Part shown: positions 3,047-29,602 of the stretch, piece after piece
Layout: the number at the start of each line of letters is the position of its first letter
Numbering within the stretch: position 1 is the stretch's first letter
Source: a virus
Virus record (IMG/VR): IMGVR_UViG_3300035698_005654
Location: 1 to 29,602 of that record
Direction: 5' to 3' (one strand)
Length of the DNA stretch: 29,602 nt
Notes under the pieces: model-generated
What the model saw: only the letters and a program-made list of their open reading frames with translations
Database searches by the model: none
What the model was told of the DNA's origin: nothing
Position numbers and translations under genes: made by a program

Positions 3047-6000
3047 TTATACTATCGAGATTGAATGATCGGGCAGGTTAGGGGTGTAGAGTCTCCCACG
3101 CAATGTATTTATGTCTTGTATACGGATGTCTTGGAAAATATCTCCCGCCGACTGACCCGAAGCGATAGTTGCCTTTCTGTTTGTATTGACAACACTGATG
3201 ATGTCGTTGTAGTTGAATCCTGTATCACTGGCGACCGTCACGCCCAATGTACCCGTCTGTGCGGCAGAGTCCCATGACCACGATGCGACCGTCGCTGTCC
3301 CGTTCACCTTACCAGCACCAGCCGTAAGCGATTGTATCTGTTCGTATGGCAAGAAGAATGTGTTTGCCTTGACCCCACCTGTAATAGCGGTTGTGCCAAG
3401 AAGAAGCGTATTCATCGTCACCTTGAAGTGAGCGATACCTAATACGTTATCTTCGTTTGGGTGTGTACGCTCTACGGTAGGATCGAAGTTAGGATTAGTA
3501 GTCACATCGTCAAACTCATAGCTCTGGTATGTGGCAATGATTGTGTCTATTGAATACATTCCATATGTTCGGTGTTCTAACGAAAGTTCTGTATTGTTTT
3601 CAGGCACAACCAAAACCTGTGGAGCAAAATACATTCCCGCCGGGTGAAGCACATCCATCAAGACCCTTCGGAATTTGCCGATAGGTTCTGTCGCCCGCAG
3701 TTGATACGAGAACGGTTGATAGAACACATTGTCTTCAAGAAACTTTTCACTACTCAAGAACCCGCTTCCGGTAGAATAGTAACCCGCTTCATTGAGCAGT
3801 GCGGCTCGCTTTGTTCCAGAGATACAATACGCATTTCCCCGTTGTGGAAGGGCAGAGTTATCAAATACCTTTGCCACCGTTGCTATTTTCGTTTCCCCAT
3901 CATAGTCCGTGATGTCTCTATAGATGGTTGTGTCATCATTCAGGGTGATCTTGATGTTCGACCCGTTGTATACATCATCAACCGACGATGCATTACCGTC
4001 GAGCGATAGCGTTTGTGGAGTCACGTTGAAAATAGACCCACATACTGTGTGGATAGATGCCGGACGTTTCGTGTCATCGGTGACAACATTTGTGTCCACC
4101 AATACTGCACAGTTGTCAATCGCACGAACAATCCATGACTTGTATTCAAGCGGGCAAGAATCTATCTCACTTGAGAATCCCGTAACATCAGATGTAGCCG
4201 TTGAATCTATTTCAGTCCAGTCCTGTACCCAACTTCCGCTTCCCTCTACCAGTTGATATCTTTCTTCCCACTTAGAAGCAAAGTATCTTATCTCGGCATG
4301 ATATGTCGCTGTTGTGTAGTTATAGACAGAGACACCCGCACCGGTTGGAATCTGTGCCGCACACGCGGCGTTGTCTGTCTGTACGATTTCTGTGATTTCA
4401 CCTGACCACAGTGGATAGCTTAGACTACTCTCATCAAAGGCGAGAGTTGTTGTTGTGAATCTTTTTGATCTTGAGCCAGTCCCGCATGCGGAATCCTTGA
4501 GAGCATCAAGGAAACTATATCGCACCGTTGACGCTTTGTATACATTTGTGTTCGTGCCTGTCTTGTAGTACATACGAGTAACCGAGTCGGTAAGCTCGGC
4601 TTGCAGCCCGGCATTGTCACCAAGAGAGTATCGTATTTGAATAAAGACTGAATCGTTTTCCTCTGTCCAGAGAGAAGTAACAACATAGGGTATCGAACCG
4701 CCCCATGTTACACCCACCGAGTCAGCGAACAACACCAAATCGCCAACAGACACGGTAGAGTCAACCACATAGATACTAGATGGTTCTGTGTCGGGACCGG
4801 CTCCCCAATTGGTAGAGTCAACATAATCTTCGGCTGATATACTGTACGAAACCGGTGTGTAGCTGTAGTATTGTTTATCGCCGCACATGTCCACCAAGAA
4901 TACCGCGTCACATGAGGCTGGCGTGTAGATACTATACGTTTCTTCAATAGCCTGCGAGACAGACGGGATCACATAATCGCCTTGGTTCAGATCGACGTAA
5001 TCACCATCAACATGTGTGATGTCTGAGTATCCGATGCCTGTAATCGCACTATCAGATATCTCGCTGCTGTCGTGAAGGATAGAGTTGGTGATGCCGACAT
5101 TAGAATACTGACCAGACCACGCAGCAGAATCTACTTGGAATTTTGCGTTGGTCTTGATGTTATTGAATCCGAGATTGGTTCCCGATTTCAATGTCCAGTA
5201 CGGGTAGCCCGAATCTTCTGCGGCTGTGTCGCCTTGATAGTTGGTGACGTATACAACCGAGTCAATCGATCCGGACAATGCGTTGGATAGTGTAGAGTCT
5301 ACATTGTCGCCAAACACAAACGCGAGCCCTTGGCAGTTTACAAACTCGATGCGTTCGTAATCTACTTCAAGCTGTGTGTCGGCGTTGAGATAAATCCCGT
5401 ATGCCTGTTCGACACTGGATGAGTTGATGATCGCGTTTACAATACAATCCTTGACGGTCGGGCAATCATAGAAAGCACCACGACCGAGCCGGGAGATTGT
5501 TGTATTCAATACGGTCGCATGATTTACGTTTTGCCAGATGTTTTCGACCGTACACTCAACGACATGATATGTACCAGACGAATCAAACAGCCGAGATGAT
5601 TGTGTACGACCGGTGTTGATAATGACGCCACTATCATCGCGTATGTAGCAGTTGCCGAAGCTAAAGTTTCCGTTGAAACTTTGTATAGTAACCATGTCAA
5701 ACGACACATCGACAAATCGTACATTTACTTCTTTGGTAAACTCAAGCTCTTTCCGTGTACCGAGCCCGATGACCGGACCCCTTGCTGTCTTGCCCTGAAT
5801 GCGTATGTCTGACAGCCCCGCCTGTCTCAACTCAAAGTCAGATGGAACAGAGTCAATCGTATACGCACCTGTGTCTGTGAGTAATAGCGTCTGCCCCTGT
5901 TTCATGCTCAATAGCGTTGTGTGGAAAGAGTCGGTTGTTCCAAGCTCTTTGTATTTGGTTGTGTAGTTTGCGACAGTACATTCTGTCGGGATGGTCGTAT

Positions 6001-7339
6001 CGTCTTCGATACCTATTGTAGAGATAGAGTCGGGAGAATAGAAGTAATCCTGACCGGGATCAACAATCTTGACACTGCCGATACCGCCCACGGATGTACC
6101 GTAGATCATGATGTCTGCACCCGATCCGGATTGCGATGACACCAAGACGTTAGCACCTGACCGTCTGCCTACCAGTGTTTCGCCTGTGACGAAAGCAACC
6201 GCCGAGTAGCGATAGGCTTTCATAATGCGTGATTCGGAGTTCCAATCCACAACAACAGCCTTCGCACCAGATATAGCACCGATGATGATTTCATTGACAA
6301 CAAAATCAGTACCAATATCATCAGCCGTTGTCACATATGTTTCGGTGACATACGCACCGGGATTCTTGGTGTATCCAGACCCACCATCGATAATCTTGAT
6401 GCGGGTCACACCGCCCGAAGCACTGACCGAATCAACATACGCTTTCGCGTTGATGCCTGATGTGCCAGAGTTTGTAAAATATATCGGGTCGCCTACAGCA
6501 TAGCCCGATCCACTATTAGAGATGATGACCGTATCAAGTGAACCGGCTCGCAGTGATTCGACAACAGCCACCGCACCCGTAGATGATGTGTTGGGCTCGC
6601 CCTGAGACAACAGGATATTGTCACCCACGGTATAGCCAGAGCCATGATCGTTGAAGTTGAAGCCAACTAACAGCGGGGATATAGTTGCGATGAGCGTATC
6701 ATCGGCTGCGTATATCTTGCCATCTACATCGAACGTGCCGACGATTGTGTTGCGGTCTAACTCAAGCTCATAGAATGTACGACCGGAAACAACATATTTG
6801 TTGACATCCGATACGGTAGCCGAAGCACCCGATGTCTTCTGTGTAATCTGTCGCGATTCCATGTCGGCTGGATCGCCTGTCGATGCCACCACCTTGATGA
6901 TCTTGCGACGTACCCAATCACCGTCCGATGAATAGAGGATGTCTTTCTTTGGGAAGTATAGAGATGCGGGCTCATCAAACAAGATGCGGAATAGAAACTG
7001 GTATGAGCTTTCTGTTCCCTTTGCACGATAAAACTCTTTGATGTTCTTGATTAGGAACGCACGATCCACCTTGATGTCTCGCGGGATACGCTGCATAAAC
7101 TGATCTGCGAGATGATTCATAAACTCATCAGATGTTTCATCGACGTTCTGATACTTGCTCACAAGACCATCGATAGTTTCTACAACACCGGCGTCTTTTT
7201 CAAGCCATTCAAAGTATGTCTCTACAAACTGTATGAATGTAGAGTATTCTTCGCTCTGTAGAAACTCCGGTACTTGTTCGGATATCTGTAATGATATCTT
7301 ATCAACGAGAGTTGTTTTCTTGTCACCAAAATTGCTCAT
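3047..7339 (-). CDS. 7: Baseplate wedge protein gp7-like, with beta-helix insertion
   Basis: This 1430-residue protein lies between gp6 and gp8, where T4 has gp7, the wedge initiator. Residues about 102-130 (EFYRAKGTESSYQFLFRILF) match the C-terminal third of T4 gp7 (FYSTKGIEASYKFLFKVLY). A segment near residue 1230 (FRRVLMDVLHPAGMYFAPQV) matches T4 'VIRFVHPVGFGFIAITLL'. In T4 these blocks are close together; here about 1100 residues separate them. The insertion holds three GSGY repeats (about 233, 277, 320), then from about 475 to 700 a region beginning 'QGQTLLLTDTGAYTI' with short beta rungs and stacked Asn/Thr/Cys, typical of a right-handed parallel beta-helix. The large N-terminal part of T4 gp7 is absent. 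The start is 1 nt past the gp6 stop side, so translation is probably coupled. Identity as gp7 rests on the two blocks plus synteny. Confidence 0.82.
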   Translation of the reverse strand: MSNFGDKKTTLVDKISLQISEQVPEFLQSEEYSTFIQFVETYFEWLEKDAGVVETIDGLVSKYQNVDETSDEFMNHLADQFMQRIPRDIKVDRAFLIKNIKEFYRAKGTESSYQFLFRILFDEPASLYFPKKDILYSSDGDWVRRKIIKVVASTGDPADMESRQITQKTSGASATVSDVNKYVVSGRTFYELELDRNTIVGTFDVDGKIYAADDTLIATISPLLVGFNFNDHGSGYTVGDNILLSQGEPNTSSTGAVAVVESLRAGSLDTVIISNSGSGYAVGDPIYFTNSGTSGINAKAYVDSVSASGGVTRIKIIDGGSGYTKNPGAYVTETYVTTADDIGTDFVVNEIIIGAISGAKAVVVDWNSESRIMKAYRYSAVAFVTGETLVGRRSGANVLVSSQSGSGADIMIYGTSVGGIGSVKIVDPGQDYFYSPDSISTIGIEDDTTIPTECTVANYTTKYKELGTTDSFHTTLLSMKQGQTLLLTDTGAYTIDSVPSDFELRQAGLSDIRIQGKTARGPVIGLGTRKELEFTKEVNVRFVDVSFDMVTIQSFNGNFSFGNCYIRDDSGVIINTGRTQSSRLFDSSGTYHVVECTVENIWQNVNHATVLNTTISRLGRGAFYDCPTVKDCIVNAIINSSSVEQAYGIYLNADTQLEVDYERIEFVNCQGLAFVFGDNVDSTLSNALSGSIDSVVYVTNYQGDTAAEDSGYPYWTLKSGTNLGFNNIKTNAKFQVDSAAWSGQYSNVGITNSILHDSSEISDSAITGIGYSDITHVDGDYVDLNQGDYVIPSVSQAIEETYSIYTPASCDAVFLVDMCGDKQYYSYTPVSYSISAEDYVDSTNWGAGPDTEPSSIYVVDSTVSVGDLVLFADSVGVTWGGSIPYVVTSLWTEENDSVFIQIRYSLGDNAGLQAELTDSVTRMYYKTGTNTNVYKASTVRYSFLDALKDSACGTGSRSKRFTTTTLAFDESSLSYPLWSGEITEIVQTDNAACAAQIPTGAGVSVYNYTTATYHAEIRYFASKWEERYQLVEGSGSWVQDWTEIDSTATSDVTGFSSEIDSCPLEYKSWIVRAIDNCAVLVDTNVVTDDTKRPASIHTVCGSIFNVTPQTLSLDGNASSVDDVYNGSNIKITLNDDTTIYRDITDYDGETKIATVAKVFDNSALPQRGNAYCISGTKRAALLNEAGYYSTGSGFLSSEKFLEDNVFYQPFSYQLRATEPIGKFRRVLMDVLHPAGMYFAPQVLVVPENNTELSLEHRTYGMYSIDTIIATYQSYEFDDVTTNPNFDPTVERTHPNEDNVLGIAHFKVTMNTLLLGTTAITGGVKANTFFLPYEQIQSLTAGAGKVNGTATVASWSWDSAAQTGTLGVTVASDTGFNYNDIISVVNTNRKATIASGQSAGDIFQDIRIQDINTLRGRLYTPNLPDHSISIV

Positions 7340-23248: not shown

Positions 23249-24043
23249 TTAGAAGTTGAACACTTGATCAGGCAGTTTCAGGTTGTCTCCAAAGGGAGAT
23301 GATTGGATGGGCAGGTTGTCGTTGATGATGTTTCCACCGGCTTGTCTCAGTTGACCCATGAATGAGTTATCGTCACCGTTGCGTAGCTTCAATCCACCGG
23401 GGAGCCATTTACGGTATTTGAATGTGACCGTCAGTTTATGGTATGCGTTGTTCATGTCGTGCCCGAGTTCCAATGCACCTATGAGAGAAGGGTAGCACTC
23501 AAGCATTTTGACAGAATACACATCGTTCAATCCACTCAGGGTCGCTGCGACTTCAGCCTCAAGGTCATTCGGCGTGTCTCCAAATATGCTCAGGAACGGA
23601 ACCCCTGTCTTTTCTTGGATCACTTCGATGTCAGAGATGTATTCTTTGTAGTAGTTGAATTCGTGTGTGTACGGGTCGATGATCGCGTGCTGCCAATCAT
23701 CGAAAAACTTCTTTTCTTCCATGTTTGCAGAGCATCGGAATACAAGCGTCAGGTCATTGAAGTCCATCGAGTTGGGGAAACTCCGCTTCGGACCATAACT
23801 CCCCGCCCGTGTCGTGTTTGTTGTTTGGATGTTTCGTGCAGGGAGGATCGCTCTTTCACATGATAAATCCAAAAATCGTTGATTCAGTGTGCCAGCCGAC
23901 ATCTTGACGAGAGATGCGAATTTTGATGTGAATGCAGACCCACCAAATGACAGCTTATCGGGCAGACTCAGACGGACACGAAACATGTTCGGTCGTTCAA
24001 TGCCACGAAACTTGATGTCGGAAAGTATTCTGCTTATGCTCAT
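23249..24043 (-). CDS. 54: gp19-superfamily tail-tube protein, probably tube initiator gp54
   Basis: A 264-residue protein of the T4 gp19/gp54 tube superfamily: 'RPNMFRVRLSLP' (N-terminal strand), 'CERAILPARNI', 'PNSMDFNDLTLVFRCSANME', 'KKFFDDWQHAIIDPYTHEFN', and near the end 'VYSVKMLECYPSLIGALELG' then 'YHKLTVTFKYRKW'. gp54 starts tube polymerisation on the baseplate and is longer than the tube protein gp19 (163 aa), so the length favours gp54. A gp48-like cap protein cannot be ruled out. The C-terminal 45 residues are an extension not seen in gp19. TCTAAATA, one base from the late promoter octamer, lies 7 nt upstream of the ATG. Confidence 0.78.
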   Translation of the reverse strand: MSISRILSDIKFRGIERPNMFRVRLSLPDKLSFGGSAFTSKFASLVKMSAGTLNQRFLDLSCERAILPARNIQTTNTTRAGSYGPKRSFPNSMDFNDLTLVFRCSANMEEKKFFDDWQHAIIDPYTHEFNYYKEYISDIEVIQEKTGVPFLSIFGDTPNDLEAEVAATLSGLNDVYSVKMLECYPSLIGALELGHDMNNAYHKLTVTFKYRKWLPGGLKLRNGDDNSFMGQLRQAGGNIINDNLPIQSSPFGDNLKLPDQVFNF

Positions 24044-24049
24044 ATAGTT

Positions 24050-25054
24050 CTATTTAGACACGATCTTTACATTTGATCCAAAGGATGCCTTGACTTTCAT
24101 GTTTTTACGGAGATTCGGGGTATATTCGTTCTTCATCCTGTCTGCCGTTCCACCCCATGTGTTTGTCTGTGAATACGGGTCAGACGAAATAAAGAGTTTG
24201 TTGTTGTCCTGAAACACAAAAGGCACTCCGTCACCTTTCGTGTGTTCAAGCACCCAATCAAGCACGTTTTCATGGACAATGGCTTCCGAAGGGAATATGT
24301 ATACATCGCCTTTTCCACTCTTGTCTACATAGCCACGCAAGCCAGAATGCCCCGCGAGTTTCAATCCGTCACTCGTTTCTTTCTTACTCGGGTTCTTGAA
24401 GATATCGGTTGTCTCGGGCTTTCCACTAAAATAGGCTTTGTGCGTCCATGTGTCTCCGATCCACTTTTCTCCGACAATCTCGATCTTGTGGCTTCTTTTC
24501 GCAATCTCACGCTCGACCGTCTTTTCTCTCATGTCTGAAACGCCGTATTCATAGAACGGCATGTAGACATCTTTCAAACTCCCCTTTCCTATTGCTCTTG
24601 GAAGGTTCTTGTTCTTTTTCAGGTTTTTCTGCCAGAAGCCTTTCCATCTCTTGTATACGTCTTCTAGTTCAAGACTCCTGTGTGTGAGATTGTGTATTGT
24701 ATATTCAGAAACCTCGACACTCCCTGTCCAGTAGACATAGACACCGACCGCTTCGCCTTTCATCTTTTGCTTGATATATGAATATGCTTCTTTGTGTTCT
24801 GCTTCGGGGGACCATGCATACAAATCTCCAAGACCGCCACGGTCCACGAATCCGCGTAGTTTATTGACTCCGAAGTCGTCCTGATTGTCTGATATATCTT
24901 TGGACTCTGAAACAGAAGGGTTTTTGTATATATCAAAGGCTTCGAGATTGGGATATCTCCTTTTGACACGCATGTTTATGGGCATCGCGTTGAACCATTC
25001 TTCATGGACTGGATATACTGATCTTGACATATGAAACTTTCTGTTTGTTTTCAT
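24050..25054 (-). CDS. Two-domain member of the YKNP/DxGxGDLY paralog family
   Basis: 334 residues holding two copies of the repeated domain. Copy 1 has IYKNPS at 42-47, RGFVDRGGLGDLYAWSP at about 67-83, H87 and WQKNLKKNKN at 141-150. Copy 2 has IFKNPS at 218-223, RGYVDKSGKGDVYIF at 240-254, H261 and a degenerate C-terminal segment (PNLRKNMKVK). A VGEKW stretch at 194-198, ahead of copy 2, resembles the N-terminal tag of its neighbours, so this gene is probably a fusion of two former genes. The N-terminus has only a degenerate tag (VHEEW, 16-20). The function is unknown. It is the last array gene before the tail-tube initiator gene, 6 nt away. Confidence 0.75.
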   Translation of the reverse strand: MKTNRKFHMSRSVYPVHEEWFNAMPINMRVKRRYPNLEAFDIYKNPSVSESKDISDNQDDFGVNKLRGFVDRGGLGDLYAWSPEAEHKEAYSYIKQKMKGEAVGVYVYWTGSVEVSEYTIHNLTHRSLELEDVYKRWKGFWQKNLKKNKNLPRAIGKGSLKDVYMPFYEYGVSDMREKTVEREIAKRSHKIEIVGEKWIGDTWTHKAYFSGKPETTDIFKNPSKKETSDGLKLAGHSGLRGYVDKSGKGDVYIFPSEAIVHENVLDWVLEHTKGDGVPFVFQDNNKLFISSDPYSQTNTWGGTADRMKNEYTPNLRKNMKVKASFGSNVKIVSK

Positions 25055-25111
25055 GTCTATTTAGGGGAGAAACTATGAAAGGATAGTCCGAATCACTCTT
25101 TTCGTGTAATG

Positions 25112-25119
25112 GATTTATA
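25112..25119 (-). promoter_or_regulatory. Candidate late promoter in the paralog array
   Basis: The minus strand reads TATAAATC, seven of eight bases of the T4 late octamer. It lies in the only sizeable gap of the array, 57 nt before the two-domain gene. A small TTAACC-ATCT-GGTTAA hairpin sits just upstream of it. It could drive the two-domain gene and the tail genes after it. Confidence 0.4.
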
Positions 25120-25171
25120 AAGGTTAACCAGATGGTTAAGGATCGTCCGCATGTCTGTGCATCAAGGGGTT

Positions 25172-25681
25172 TTAGTACGATTTATCCTCTGCCGATACGC
25201 GAAGACCCATACCCAACGCCTTGAAATTCCTATTGGCAGCGATGTTTTTGCTCCAAAATGATATCATCGCTTTTCTCCATCCTGACTTGGTGTTCGGATC
25301 GCCGGGAATGTCGTAATCGTTCTGATCGATCCCAAAGTCTATGCGGTTCCCGCGTGATTGTAACGCTATGTAGGACAGTGTAATCGTCTTTGCCTTTGCG
25401 TGTATATATAGCGGAAGTATAGGCTTTTTCAGATATTTGTACTGCGGCTCTAGAGCGCGTAGAATCATCTGATGTGTTATATCGGCGGAACACATATAAA
25501 GATCGCCCATCCCACCACGATCAAGAAGTACCCGCAAAATGCCCGGCGCATAGGTGGATTCGGACGCCCTGATGGTCTGTACTTCAGCCTTCGACGGATT
25601 TTTGTATATGTTCCTTTGATAGCCAGCCTCCTTGCCATGCACAGCGACCCATTTTTCGTCTATGTTTGTAGGGGTTTTCAT
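25172..25681 (-). CDS. Single-domain YKNP/DxGxGDLY paralog
   Basis: 169 residues. The tag IDEKW is at 7-11, IYKNPSKAEV at 25-34, DRGGMGDLYM at 54-63, H70 in 'SADITHQMIL', and FWSKNIAANRNFK at 142-154. Between the DxGxGD motif and the C-terminal segment are two or three beta strands (PILPLYIHAKAKTITLSYIA). The family and function are unknown. The start codon overlaps the stop of the upstream paralog by one base (TAATG), so the two are translationally coupled. Confidence 0.75.
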   Translation of the reverse strand: MKTPTNIDEKWVAVHGKEAGYQRNIYKNPSKAEVQTIRASESTYAPGILRVLLDRGGMGDLYMCSADITHQMILRALEPQYKYLKKPILPLYIHAKAKTITLSYIALQSRGNRIDFGIDQNDYDIPGDPNTKSGWRKAMISFWSKNIAANRNFKALGMGLRVSAEDKSY

Positions 25682-26310
25682 TAGATGCCTTTGCTCAAAT
25701 CAGAATCGACTCTGCGTACACCGATGTTCTTGAATGCCTTGTTTCGTAGGATGTTCTTGCCCCAAAATGAGTCAATCTTCTTTACCGCATCGGCATATCC
25801 GGACCATCTATCCGCACCGGGTTCGTTGGAAGCGTCCCTATCGTACAGCCTTGTGATCGCTTCTGTGAATTTCGAAAAGTAGATTTCCTTTCTCTTGTAT
25901 TCATAGTACAGATCGAGAAGCTCACCTTTTAGTGTGATTCCGGGCTTTGTTAGGGCTTGTATGAGATCGCCATGGTTCATATCACCCGATGCCATATAGA
26001 GATTTCCCATTCCACCCCGATCTACTATACATCGCGTCTTTGATGCCTTGTATTGGGAAGATTTCACCATTTCTCGGACTTCTGCGAGACTTGGATTGAT
26101 GTATACGGTGTAATCGTCTGCCGTCGCGAACGCCCGACCATTTGCGATGGGGTCTTCAGATAGTTCAAAGTTTTGTACAATTTTACCATTTTGCCCTTGT
26201 TTTATGCACAATTTTGTATATTGTACACTTTCTGCCCCGGATTCTAATATATTAGGAATCTCCGCCGGAATCGTGGGTTCTGTGCTTTTAGTAGAGTCTT
26301 TTGGCAACAT
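25681..26310 (-). CDS. Single-domain paralog with extended N-terminus
   Basis: 209 residues, about 40 longer than its neighbours because of a Ser/Pro/Thr/Glu-rich N-terminal extension that contains ILE (21-23) and LSE (50-52) but no clear E-K-W tag. The domain follows: VYINPSLAEV at 69-78, DRGGMGNLYM at 97-106, H113 and FWGKNILRNKAFKNIGV near the end. The Lys of YKNP is Ile here, and the second Asp of GD is Asn. It overlaps the upstream paralog by 23 nt. Confidence 0.72.
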   Translation of the reverse strand: MLPKDSTKSTEPTIPAEIPNILESGAESVQYTKLCIKQGQNGKIVQNFELSEDPIANGRAFATADDYTVYINPSLAEVREMVKSSQYKASKTRCIVDRGGMGNLYMASGDMNHGDLIQALTKPGITLKGELLDLYYEYKRKEIYFSKFTEAITRLYDRDASNEPGADRWSGYADAVKKIDSFWGKNILRNKAFKNIGVRRVDSDLSKGI

Positions 26311-26776
26311 TCTGCACCCCCATGTTTTTCATGTTCTTGTTTGCAAGGATGTTTTTGATCCAGAATTTGTCTCGCATGATTACCATACGCTTAGTGCCCT
26401 TTTGCCCATCGAAAATGTCTTCATCCTCGTTATCAAGAGACATCGCATCCCAAGACCATGTTATTTCGCCTTGCGGGAGAGGGCGGTAATACAGCGAAAT
26501 TAGCTGACCCTTCATAGTCTTGTCTAATCTATAGCGAGCGAGAATGTTTGTATGTGTAAAGTAGTACGAATCGAATGCAATGATGTCTCCCATTCCCCCA
26601 CGATCTACCCATATCCGAACGTATGAGGATACTTTGTTTACAGCGATGATGTCCAAAACCTCTTGTTTAGAAGGGTTTTTGTATATCTCGGACGTTCCGG
26701 AACCGCGAGCCCCCGAACCAGTCAGTTTAGCTGTTTTCCACCATTTTTCGAATATGAGGTTTTGAGAGTTATCCAC
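26288..26776 (-). CDS. Single-domain paralog (GTG start)
   Basis: 162 residues from a GTG with AGGA at good distance. The tag LIFEKWW is at 7-13, IYKNPSKQEV at 31-40, VDRGGMGDII at 57-66 (Ile-Ile replaces Leu-Tyr), H75 and FWIKNILANKNMKNMGV at 138-154. A Gly/Ser-rich linker (SGARGSGTS) separates tag and domain, as expected if the tag is removed. The function is unknown. Confidence 0.72.
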   Translation of the reverse strand: MDNSQNLIFEKWWKTAKLTGSGARGSGTSEIYKNPSKQEVLDIIAVNKVSSYVRIWVDRGGMGDIIAFDSYYFTHTNILARYRLDKTMKGQLISLYYRPLPQGEITWSWDAMSLDNEDEDIFDGQKGTKRMVIMRDKFWIKNILANKNMKNMGVQNVAKRLY

Positions 26777-26800
26777 AATGCGTCCTATTTTCGGGAAAGT

Positions 26801-26866
26801 CTATTTTACTGCATGAATATTGAAAGTCACCCCGGAGAGACTTTTCGTGTATTCGGAGTTATCCAC
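26801..26866 (-). pseudogene. Possible relic of a paralog start
   Basis: A 21-codon frame begins with the same GTGGATAACTC as the neighbouring paralog 90 nt away (product MDNSEYTKSLSGVTFNIHAVK, shorter than a domain). The copy lacks every domain motif and ends at a TAG. It looks like a duplicated gene start that was never completed or has decayed. Confidence 0.35.
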
Positions 26867-26867
26867 A

Positions 26868-27340
26868 TCAAAAGCCGCGTAAAAATTGTTCTCTGTCTGT
26901 GTCTACCTTATTTATCCCGGCGTTTCGTACATGCTTGTTTGCGAGCATGTTTTTTGCCCAAAACCGCATATATTCTTCGTCAGCCTCTGCACTATTCGAA
27001 TCGCTCCGCAGTGTAGGCGTATACTCGGAAAATGAAATCTCCTTTTTTCCGGCATGCACATAGATGTGAAGAATCGCGCCCTTCGGAAACTTTGGGTCTT
27101 CTTGCCCCAATGCTGTTTCGATGGACGCATGCACTTCTTAAGAAGTGCATGCACTTCTTTTGCAGGGGAAAACACATACAAATCGCCACGCCCGCCACGA
27201 TCTATGAGTGCCCGTACCCGCCCTTTCGCATGCGGATTTCCTATGAGGATAGATGATATCTCTCCCCGACTCGGATTTTTGAATACAGGGACTTTCTGTG
27301 AAGTAACAATATACAGGTCTTCTTCTATGTTTTTCACCAT
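26868..27340 (-). pseudogene. Paralog disrupted by a 20-nt palindromic insertion
   Basis: The first part (from ATG 27340, MVKNIEEDLY, with a GGAAGG site; an upstream ATG at 27355 is also possible) carries VFKNPSRGEI and LIDRGGRGDLYVFSPAKEVHA. The second part, in another frame, reads SIETALGQEDPKFPKGAIL through 'RFWAKNMLANKHVRNAGI' to a stop at 26868. Together they make one complete family member. The shift is caused by 20 extra nt near 27132-27151. Removing one 20-nt unit joins the frames exactly (distance between the frames 221 nt, minus 20, is 201, a multiple of three). The ribosome could possibly bypass the insertion; otherwise the gene is dead. Confidence 0.75.
27127..27159. repeat. 26-bp perfect palindrome plus overlapping direct repeat
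   Basis: 27127-27152 is a perfect palindrome centred on TTAA, with arms of GCATGCACTTCTT. The 13-mer GCATGCACTTCTT recurs 20 nt on (27127-27139 and 27147-27159). The unit is therefore a 20-nt tandem duplication of a self-complementary sequence. Confidence 0.9.
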
Positions 27341-27771
27341 GATATCGCCTTCCATCCCTTTTTTCCTAGGAAGCGTGTGAAGTTGTCGTTTTGCGTGATA
27401 GCTTCCAATCTTTGTTGTCTTTTCTTGTCAGAGCCTAATGTCAGGACTTTCATAGTCTTTTTTCGTACATCAAACTCTGCCCGTAGAAAGTCTACAGATG
27501 ATAGCTTATTTAGATGTTTCAATGCCATGCCGTGTAAAAGTCTATAATCGAAAATCCATACGGTCCCTGCTCCATATTCGGAAACGAGCATACGGACCTG
27601 CATTCCGAATTCCGTATCAAGATTTTTCACAATCTCATTGTATTCCCGCACCGTTGGATTTTTAAATATGGGCATGTCCAATACTTCGGAATTCATATCA
27701 CCGGTCCATATACGGTTCGGCACAGAAGTCGCCCATTTTTCGCTGATATATTGGGAGAATGATTTTATCAT
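27334..27771 (-). CDS. Divergent paralog (tag kept, domain degenerate)
   Basis: 145 residues from the ATG at 27771, chosen because it overlaps the upstream stop (ATGA) and gives the tag MIKSFSQYISEKW, as in its neighbour. IFKNPTVREY is kept at 35-44. The middle motif is 'RMLVSEYGAGTVWIF' in place of D-x-G-x-GD-L-Y, losing both Asp, though His is kept (LLHGMAL, H80). The C-terminal W-x-KN segment is missing. It may be adapted to a different role or be decaying. Confidence 0.65.
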   Translation of the reverse strand: MIKSFSQYISEKWATSVPNRIWTGDMNSEVLDMPIFKNPTVREYNEIVKNLDTEFGMQVRMLVSEYGAGTVWIFDYRLLHGMALKHLNKLSSVDFLRAEFDVRKKTMKVLTLGSDKKRQQRLEAITQNDNFTRFLGKKGWKAISW

Positions 27772-28277
27772 ATGTCCATATTCCTTTTCTGCACGACAAA
27801 TCCTGACTTCATCATACGCTTTACGTTGCGGTTTTTCAGTATATTCTTTTCCCATAGTTCGTCGATCATAGCCCGACTTTCTTTTACGCTATATTCTATG
27901 GAGTTTCCGTAAGTCTTCCCGGCTTCAAGACTCCAATAGGAAAAACCGACACCGAGCGAGCCATCTGTAATATAGCATGGAAGATTATCACCGACGCCCT
28001 TATTCAGATGTTTTTTCACCTTACGGTATACTGAACCATGGTTCACAGCCGCACTCCACATGTACACATCGCCCGCACCATCGTCGCCTATCCATAGACG
28101 TACAATATCTTGATAGCGTGTGTCTGATTCCAAGTTTTCTGCAAAGGCTTCTTGTACTTCGGTTCGCGTCGGATTCTGATAGATGGAAATTTTTCCGCCA
28201 ATGATCCTTTGACTAGTCGCCATATCAAGAAACTTTTCGGACAGTATGTATTGGGAGAATGATTTCAACTTTTCCAC
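27768..28277 (-). CDS. Single-domain paralog with clear N-terminal tag
   Basis: 169 residues. The tag is MEKLKSFSQYILSEKF, with LSEKF at 12-16. IYQNPTRTEV is at 32-41, LWIGDDGAGDVYMWSAAVNH at 61-80 and LWEKNILKNRNVK at 141-153. Almost the same K-S-F-S-Q-Y-I segment opens the next gene, evidence of recent duplication of the gene starts. It overlaps the upstream paralog by 13 nt. The function is unknown. Confidence 0.75.
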   Translation of the reverse strand: MEKLKSFSQYILSEKFLDMATSQRIIGGKISIYQNPTRTEVQEAFAENLESDTRYQDIVRLWIGDDGAGDVYMWSAAVNHGSVYRKVKKHLNKGVGDNLPCYITDGSLGVGFSYWSLEAGKTYGNSIEYSVKESRAMIDELWEKNILKNRNVKRMMKSGFVVQKRNMDI

Positions 28278-28705
28278 CTTACTCTATATGAAGATTTCAC
28301 CATCCGTGAAAGATAGATGTTTTTCTCTACTTTGTCATGAACCGTCTGTCTCGCGGTCACTTCGCTGTTGTAATAGTAAATCTCTGCTGTCCGCTTCTTC
28401 CCGTCGAATTCTCCAAAGACCGCCCAATTTCCGTTCTCATGGAGCCCTGCCCTGAAAGAGTCTATAGCGTCCGCATGAAAGAGCTTATACGAGAATGCAT
28501 ATAGATCGCCCTTCCCGTCATGGTCAATGATGAATCGGAAGTTTTTCGGAAACGCTCCGAGTTCTTTCTCTGTTTCTTCTATAATGCTCGCGTATTCGGA
28601 CGGGCTCGGATTTTTGTATATGGAATAGTTAGTCTGTGAATACTTCGTCTTAGAGAGAGCAACGTACTTTTCGCATAAGCCCATGAATTGTTTGAAAGTC
28701 TTCAT
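28265..28705 (-). CDS. Single-domain paralog with tag
   Basis: 146 residues. The tag is MKTFKQFMGLCEKY (LCEKY at 10-14). IYKNPSPSEY is at 29-38, FIIDHDGKGDLYAFSYKLFH at 58-77 and a weak C-terminal segment 'VEKNIYLSRMVK' follows. The start is 3 nt after the end of the upstream two-domain gene. The motif D-H-D-G-K-G-D shows that the core is D-x-x-G-x-G-D, with Asp and Gly conserved but not the second Arg/Gly. Confidence 0.75.
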   Translation of the reverse strand: MKTFKQFMGLCEKYVALSKTKYSQTNYSIYKNPSPSEYASIIEETEKELGAFPKNFRFIIDHDGKGDLYAFSYKLFHADAIDSFRAGLHENGNWAVFGEFDGKKRTAEIYYYNSEVTARQTVHDKVEKNIYLSRMVKSSYRVRWKS

Positions 28706-28708
28706 TTT

Positions 28709-29602
28709 TTACGCTTCCCCTACAGAGTTGATCTTATTGCCTACGATCTTTTCTATCTTCTTGTTTGCCATGAGATTTTTCGACCACCGATCTATATCTT
28801 CTTTCCATTTTTTAGAACGCTTCTTCATAGAGAAAGATGATATGTCCATGCCCGTATCTTTCGGATAGACCCATACGGCGACCGGCTGAATCGTCGCGGC
28901 GTTTCCAAGTTTCGGAACGCGGATCGCGGCTTCATGCTCCAACTCAGAGTTGAAGATATAGACATCGCCTTTCCCGGCATTATCTACCCACGCACGAATC
29001 TCATCATATTCTCCTTCGTCCATAGCGTCCAATACTTCGCGGGGCGTTGGATTTTTGTAGATTGATATGGGAGTCCCCTCATCGCCTTTTTTCATGGCAA
29101 GATATGCTTCGTTTAGGAAACTCTTTATGTCAGATGCCTGTTTTGCTACATTGAATGGGGCAAAGTTTTTATTTGCCATGAGATTTTTCTTTATGCCCGG
29201 CAGAAGTTTCTTTGCTTTGGCAAATGATATTCCACCACCGATTGATTCTTCGCCGGTAATCCATACGGTCTTTCGCGGTTTCCATGCGAGAGAAACGCCG
29301 ACCGGGATTCCCTTCAAGAATCCTTTCATATACCCATAGGCATAGTGATGTAGAAACGCACCGTCCCACATATAGACATCGCCCCTGCCAAGATCGTCCA
29401 CGAAAAATCTCATGCCGTTGTCTTTGTGTGAATATTCCTCATCCTTCATATACTTCAGCATTTCTGAGTTTGTCGGATTCTTGAATATTGTCAGCGGATT
29501 GGACTTATAGAAAAATGTCGGGTCGCTCTGATCGCCTTTGGGCAAATCTTGGTTCGACACTTCTAGCGTCTTGAAGTATTTCTCTTTGATATAGTGTTTG
29601 AA
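28709..29602 (-). CDS. Two-domain paralog (5' end outside the window)
   Basis: Reading continues to the window edge, and the 14 codons before an internal GTG at 29560 encode FKHYIKEKYFKTLE. This matches the tags of the neighbours (I-K-E-K-Y), so the true start lies beyond the window and the GTG is not it. Domain 1 has IFKNPTNSEM, FVDDLGRGDVYMWDGAFLHH and KKNLMANKNF. A second tag-like stretch, IKSFLNEAYLAM, precedes domain 2: IYKNPTPREV, WVDNAGKGDVYIF, H and WSKNLMANKKIEK. The function is unknown. The repeat of tag plus domain within one chain again suggests a gene fusion. Confidence 0.75.
   Translation of the reverse strand, partial: FKHYIKEKYFKTLEVSNQDLPKGDQSDPTFFYKSNPLTIFKNPTNSEMLKYMKDEEYSHKDNGMRFFVDDLGRGDVYMWDGAFLHHYAYGYMKGFLKGIPVGVSLAWKPRKTVWITGEESIGGGISFAKAKKLLPGIKKNLMANKNFAPFNVAKQASDIKSFLNEAYLAMKKGDEGTPISIYKNPTPREVLDAMDEGEYDEIRAWVDNAGKGDVYIFNSELEHEAAIRVPKLGNAATIQPVAVWVYPKDTGMDISSFSMKKRSKKWKEDIDRWSKNLMANKKIEKIVGNKINSVGEA

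Follow-up and report, generated by a model that had tools for sequence, protein, structure and literature searches.

Candidate internal head proteins encoded by a tandem array of diverged domain genes in an uncultured T4-like phage

Bacteriophage T4 injects the internal proteins Ip1, Ip2 and Ip3, each of which blocks a different GmrSD restriction enzyme (PMC12373910), and this result raises the question of the size and diversity that such sets of injected proteins can reach. We address this question with a gene array found in the IMG/VR virus record IMGVR_UViG_3300035698_005654, a viral contig of 29.6 kb (29,602 nucleotides, referred to as the window). Nine consecutive minus-strand genes at positions 24050-29602, here designated g1 to g9 and in part overlapping, carry eleven copies of one domain, and the genes beside them are T4-like. 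The packaging signal, the genomic settings and the charge place this family functionally with the T4-type internal head proteins, and we argue that the array is probably a diversified family of such proteins, which would be packaged, cleaved and injected and would act on host targets.

The T4 proteins IPI-III and the array proteins have in common that they are small and basic, that they start with a targeting sequence of ~10 residues ending in L/I-x-E, and that several of them are encoded per genome (PMC9026906). The T4 proteins share only the leader, their mature parts being reported as non-homologous, whereas an array consists of 9-13 neighbouring genes with one homologous domain. Unlike the T4 proteins, the array family also includes two-domain proteins and giant fused forms, and its domain matches no known family; the family profile found no match in the whole T4 genome, and no homology to the mature domains of the T4 internal proteins was seen. 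Another T4 protein, Alt, is a packaged ADP-ribosyltransferase (ART) that is cleaved by gp21, injected and modifies the host (PMC9026906); it has no sequence match to the array, and the window proteins are without an ART domain.

Two further systems invite comparison. In phages SPN3US and phiKZ, a prohead protease cuts packaged ejection proteins at AxE or SxE, and the likeness to the array lies in paralogues with identical N-termini and in cutting at xxE (PMC5694885); these phages belong to a different group, the propeptides are long, and no relation to the array domain is shown. Polyvalent proteins are early-acting, presumably packaged effectors, and one prophage protein of this kind has 12 ART copies (Iyer et al. 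2017; PMC5512222). The array family recalls them in its tandem domain copies, in a distant copy that lies in a 1,384-residue open reading frame (ORF), and in a leader-bearing InPase gene that neighbours the domain gene in contig G009. Unlike polyvalent proteins, the window proteins contain one domain type in one or two copies and no Pfam domain, and they are encoded by separate small genes with T4-type leaders.

The domain and its leader

An initial annotation, made without database searches, had described nine minus-strand genes with eleven copies of one unnamed domain next to the tail genes, and had judged the copies long diverged and recognised no named Pfam family in them; all of this was borne out. 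Leave-one-out profiles recovered each tested copy at E-values of 5e-16 to 7e-28 (Z=1000), both halves of the broken gene g5, which were left out of the first profile, matched at 1.6e-13 and 3.2e-8, and tail tube-like and baseplate genes follow the array. Pairwise identity between the array copies is only ~20-32%, and the copies are therefore old. The motifs listed in the annotation hold in part: the NP motif is invariant in 53 copies, GxGD and WxKN occur in no more than a majority of them, and a Glu upstream had been overlooked. The conserved stretch reaches beyond the NP motif to this invariant Glu, which is followed by [KE]-[WFY]. The invariant positions of the 53-row alignment are the site Glu, N28, P29, E33 and H70, and R50 is present in 47 rows.

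The domain is new, comprises ~130 residues and has no description in any library that was searched. All array proteins were scanned against Pfam and PHROGs without a credible match, and sequence and fold searches of PDB gave none. No relatives were found by tblastn against 50,697 phage records, whether the queries were g1, g2, g9 and one protein of contig G004 or copies from L076, L081 and L082, and none by single-protein scans of IMG/VR; the tblastn matches of g1 to mycobacteriophages were rejected as noise (E of at least 0.2). A pattern scan of 85,000 GTDB genomes returned 43 motif matches, with homology outside the motif in none. The domain was likewise not found in the nearest isolates by gp6 comparison, namely two members of the Kyanoviridae, the Pelagibacter phage HTVC008M (40%) and the Methylophilales phage Melnitz (38%).

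AlphaFold2 models of g7 (pLDDT 77, pTM 0.76) and g2 (pLDDT 78, pTM 0.75) have the same order of elements, strand-helix-strand-strand-helix-strand-strand-helices; confidence is low for the N-terminal part, in the leader as well as in the stretch that follows the Glu. Foldseek comparisons with PDB and BFVD gave no match at E<=0.001. The best BFVD match of one of the two is a weak one to a 'PolyVal ADP-Ribosyltransferase' (prob 0.92, E 0.026, TM 0.42), and a 121-residue protein of Rhizobium phage RL2RES is among the leading BFVD matches of both (prob 0.92 and 0.80). We take this protein, from its length, to be RL2RES_104 (QGZ14230.1; MN549361.1 68990-69355; 121 codons; annotated as hypothetical), the top match of the family profile in RL2RES, at an E-value of 0.028 unfiltered; neither the structural nor the profile match is significant. 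RL2RES_104 may be a distant single-copy relative in an isolated phage; it is located among DNA-metabolism genes, has neither a targeting leader nor the NP motif, and is a lead only.

A conserved Glu precedes each domain, and in the best-preserved genes (g8, g7, g6 and the cut g9) this Glu ends a leader. The propeptide of T4 IPIII is MKTYQEFIAE, followed by A (record X04567). IPIII mutants assign residues 4 and 7 to targeting and residues 8 and 10 to processing, and gp21 cleaves after L/I-X-E (PMC9026906). The array leaders retain these key positions as [FY]4, [FY]7, [ILM]8 and E. When a leader pattern was applied to all start codons in ORFs 60 residues long or longer, it matched 2 of 2,074 starts in T4 (IPIII and IPII only), 3 of 682 in the window (g6, g7 and g8, array genes only), and nine genes among 825 starts in contig G004, all of them array genes. 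There was no match in the scanned parts of HTVC008M (280 starts) and Melnitz (437 starts), or in the whole of RL2RES (3,235 starts).

A pattern for the putative cleavage site, [LIVM]xE[KE][WFY], is found within the first 30 residues of 18 of 21 array genes as compared with 2 of 173 other genes, and [LIVMFY]xE[KEG][WFYL] is found 10-31 residues before the NP motif in 47 of 55 domains as compared with 3 of 8,398 other positions in the same proteins. L or I occupies P3 in 36 of the 55 domains, the site Glu is invariant in the aligned copies (53/53), and a protease-type site in some form precedes all eleven copies of the window. Mature array domains are basic, with a median pI of 9.2 in the window and 9.1 in G004 (9.6-9.7 for the T4 internal proteins). 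Packaging, although a prediction, is well supported by these sequence features.

Relatives and their genomic settings

Relatives were found by degenerate motif pattern and subset-alignment searches of IMG/VR, and because these scans are pattern-based the known distribution is a lower bound. The 39-kb contig G004 contains a second array of 13 genes with 17 domains at 29028-39135 (contig end), most of the leaders being clear. Fused forms comprise a single 2,396-residue ORF with 11 domains (G011) and near-identical 1,316-residue ORFs with 8-9 domains (G013 and G014, the latter with one copy more). The 107-kb contig G012 has four copies over ORFs of 915 and 366 residues. Single copies have the leaders MKKFKEYLKE/EW (G009 and G010) and MKRFLQYIAE/EW (G015), the slash marking the putative cleavage point, and the number of domain copies per phage ranges from 1 to 17. 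The 2,342-residue protein of the 2,396-residue frame (L078:6530-13555) also contains, between its domain copies 2 and 3, a second unit that is repeated several times, of the form YGHxSPxDMLWW ... GRIDxKKKVI ... RDFxIALY and without a Pfam match. The distant copy mentioned above is mid-way in its 1,384-residue ORF, on the non-array viral contig L012. Pfam found no domain in the 892 residues of this ORF that were scanned, and the ORF may qualify as a polyvalent protein. By eye, an ADP-ribosyltransferase-like R...S-x-S...E-x-E arrangement is seen near its C-terminus (L012:1-2679).

In a weakly resolved tree the copies of the window array and of the G004 array interleave, and neither array forms one clade in any of 200 bootstrap trees; the expansion therefore appears to have preceded the separation of the two phages. 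This interleaving and the low identities led us to reject recent local duplication.

The genomic settings of the relatives vary. Two multi-copy genes of G012 are directly upstream of the gene for a 1,041-residue protein whose prohead protease domain is of the T4 type (phrog_207, 6.5e-21; three-sequence gp21 profile, 6.5e-15), and the gene for a major head protein (4e-32) is near them. The domain gene of G015 is near head-closure and terminase genes, and in other contigs the family is also found beside helicase or single-stranded DNA-binding genes. In G009 the domain gene is part of a run of ~10 small genes (L076:7835-15559) that have T4-targeting-like N-termini, such as MNTFKQYLIE/A, MSKYKEYLNE/A and MKKFKAFLKE/Q, and unrelated, mostly unrecognised cargo. 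One gene of the run codes for an InPase, a domain of polyvalent proteins (PF18823, 6e-52), its PHROG matches including DarB-like antirestriction and minor head protein. Another has a weak ParB-like nuclease match, and the run looks like an internal-protein island. Between domain genes of the G004 array there is a 2H phosphoesterase gene (L025:12124-12618; G004 32124-32621) with matches to 2_5_RNA_ligase2 (1.7e-9) and, just under the Pfam cut-off, to anti-CBASS Acb1 (1.7e-5). An Acb1-like gene inside the array would fit a counter-defence island.

Injected set or other functions

Because most copies start with the T4 head-loading tag or a remnant of it, the array looks like a large, long-diverged injected set. 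Late in infection, as the sequences and the genome context of the relatives suggest, the precursors would bind the prohead core via the N-terminal capsid-targeting sequence. A T4-type prohead protease would cut after [LI]-x-E before each domain and remove the leader, and the same cut would separate the two domains of g1 and of g9 and perhaps those of the fused forms. By analogy with the T4 internal proteins, the small basic domains would be retained in the head with the DNA and injected along with it. Each variant would then bind, and probably inhibit, a different host target, the likeliest being restriction or other defence enzymes; analogy and the old divergence point to inhibition of diverse host defence enzymes as the most likely role of the many diverged copies. 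It is conceivable, if somewhat doubtful, that the fused members (the 2,396- and 1,316-residue frames) are polyproteins cut at inter-repeat [LI]-x-E in the head, which would free mixed injectable domains. The initial annotation had suggested a set of co-injected proteins or diversification against host targets. The former has gained strong sequence support in the T4-type targeting sequences and prohead-protease sites, with injection itself argued from T4; the latter fits the old divergence, and as to the targets we can only infer.

Several observations weigh against assigning the array to the internal head proteins. The leaders of g1, g2, g4 and g5 are degenerate and g3 has none. The window has no head module, and no prohead protease was found in it or in the contigs other than G012, most of which are fragments; the 144-kb contig G009 yielded none either. 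In the metagenomic contigs, G012 included, Pfam S77 gave no protease match, and hmmscan at E<1e-4 did not list phrog_207 for the G012 (L079) protease, which the gp21 profile supports. The copies in L079 are acidic. The leader pattern was drawn up with both the T4 and the array leaders already seen, and since it was written post hoc, its specificity and not its sensitivity counts as evidence. Finally, and this is the chief doubt about cleavage, the residues after the Glu are conserved as well ([KE], then W/F/Y, in 51 of 53 copies), and the E-[KE]-[WFY] segment may therefore belong to the fold and not be a cleavage site.

If that segment were the first element of the fold and the likeness of the leaders due to chance or to a general helix, the array could encode cytoplasmic accessory proteins that are not packaged. 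Its [KE]-[WFY] part is conserved as the domain is and persists within the fused proteins, and several window copies are without a full leader. However, the leaders fit experimentally defined targeting positions, the scan proved specific across the genomes and parts of genomes that it covered, and AlphaFold2 assigns low confidence to the leader and the post-Glu segment. Moreover, in neighbouring genes of G009 the same leader and Glu are present but the residues after them are unrelated, an argument for regarding the Glu as part of the leader and not of the domain alone; the same is seen in neighbouring genes of G015. We consider unpackaged proteins quite improbable. Tail or baseplate accessory proteins, suggested by the position beside the tail tube and baseplate genes, are a far remoter prospect. 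The array shares its strand with the tail genes, and the octamer CTAAATAG precedes both g1 and the tail tube-like gene; against this, there is no match to any tail family, and other contigs place the family in the head module, beside terminase, or beside helicase and single-stranded DNA-binding genes.

Two alternatives accept packaging and differ in what the proteins do. They could be core or DNA-condensing proteins that serve core assembly, head-size control or charge neutralisation, the copy number reflecting dosage and not targets. Such a role would agree with the basic domains, with the G012 genes adjoining protease and capsid genes, and with the defects in head morphology published for IPIII mutants of T4 (PMC9026906), but it is unlikely in view of the very low identity between copies and the few invariant residues, which exceed dosage needs, of the variation in copy number between phages, and of the absence of the domain from HTVC008M and Melnitz. 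We give about the same small credence to injected enzymes, that is, to each copy being catalytic and modifying host molecules in the manner of polyvalent-protein domains, with T4-type packaging as the means of delivery. E33, R50 and H70 are near-universal among very diverged copies, a related domain resides in the 1,384-residue ORF, and the PolyVal ART protein matched in BFVD and the neighbouring InPase gene point the same way; yet PDB and Pfam gave no enzyme match, the structural matches are weak (none at E<=0.001), and the invariant residues could be structural. The link to polyvalent proteins that the annotation had drawn is supported in part, by the distant copy, the weak ART match and the InPase neighbour; the window proteins themselves have a single domain type.

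Features of the window and implications

Positions of the array genes, their sites and possible late promoter elements are given in the table. The likeliest starts of g7 and g6 are 28268 (TTG) and 27771 (ATG), rather than the longer ORF starts, and an N-terminal targeting sequence was looked for in g3, none being clear. The frameshift in g5 is caused by a palindromic 20-bp duplication: a perfect palindrome of 26 nt spans 27127-27152 and is accompanied by a direct repeat of 13 nt at an offset of 20. The lesion may be real and the duplication recent, or it may be an artefact of assembly. The T4-like neighbours encode baseplate wedge (gp53-, gp6- and gp25-like), gp32-type single-strand binding, baseplate hub and tail tube-like proteins. 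In a 1,430-residue protein (window 3047-7339) the baseplate wedge matches are mainly N-terminal; no family was recognised in the remainder, which could be a long insertion.

Table. Array genes, putative cleavage sites (slash) and possible late promoter elements in the window
Feature	Position	Strand	Remarks
g9, two domains	28709..29602	-	5' end beyond window
g9, start inside targeting-like FKHYIKE/KY	Glu codon 29582-29584	-	
g9, second site IKSFLNE/AY	Glu codon 29108-29110	-	before domain 2
g8, one domain	28265..28705	-	targeting sequence MKTFKQFMGLCE/KY, Glu codon 28670-28672
g7, one domain	27768..28268	-	targeting sequence MKSFSQYILSE/KF, Glu codon 28236-28238
g6, one domain	27334..27771	-	targeting sequence MIKSFSQYISE/KW, Glu codon 27739-27741
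g5, one domain, broken frame	26868..27355	-	weak site NIEE/DL, Glu codon 27320-27322
g4, one domain	26288..26776	-	site NLIFE/KW, targeting sequence degenerate, Glu codon 26747-26749
g3, one domain after ~50 extra residues	25681..26310	-	site FELSE/D, Glu codon 26155-26157
g2, one domain	25172..25681	-	site NIDE/KW, short degenerate leader, Glu codon 25655-25657
g1, two domains	24050..25054	-	sites PVHE/EW (Glu codon 25001-25003) and EIVGE/KW (Glu codon 24467-24469)
CTAAATAG, possible T4-type late promoter element	25057..25064	-	10 nt before g1; weak
CTAAATAG, same octamer	24057	-	14 nt before tail tube-like gene at 24043
TATAAATA, possible T4-type late promoter element	9581	-	13 nt before gp25-like gene

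What is new is the amplification of one domain family as tandem genes or as fused repeats: outside the T-even phages, one homologous family occupies 9-13 neighbouring genes per phage and in addition occurs in fused forms. If the fused forms are polyproteins, tandem genes and fusions would be two ways of loading the same diversified set, and if they are cut in the prohead, this would be a new way of loading many effectors together. With the family profile and the leader-plus-site signature, uncultured T4-like phages can be searched for injected proteins, and the set of paralogues is one on which target specificity could be mapped.

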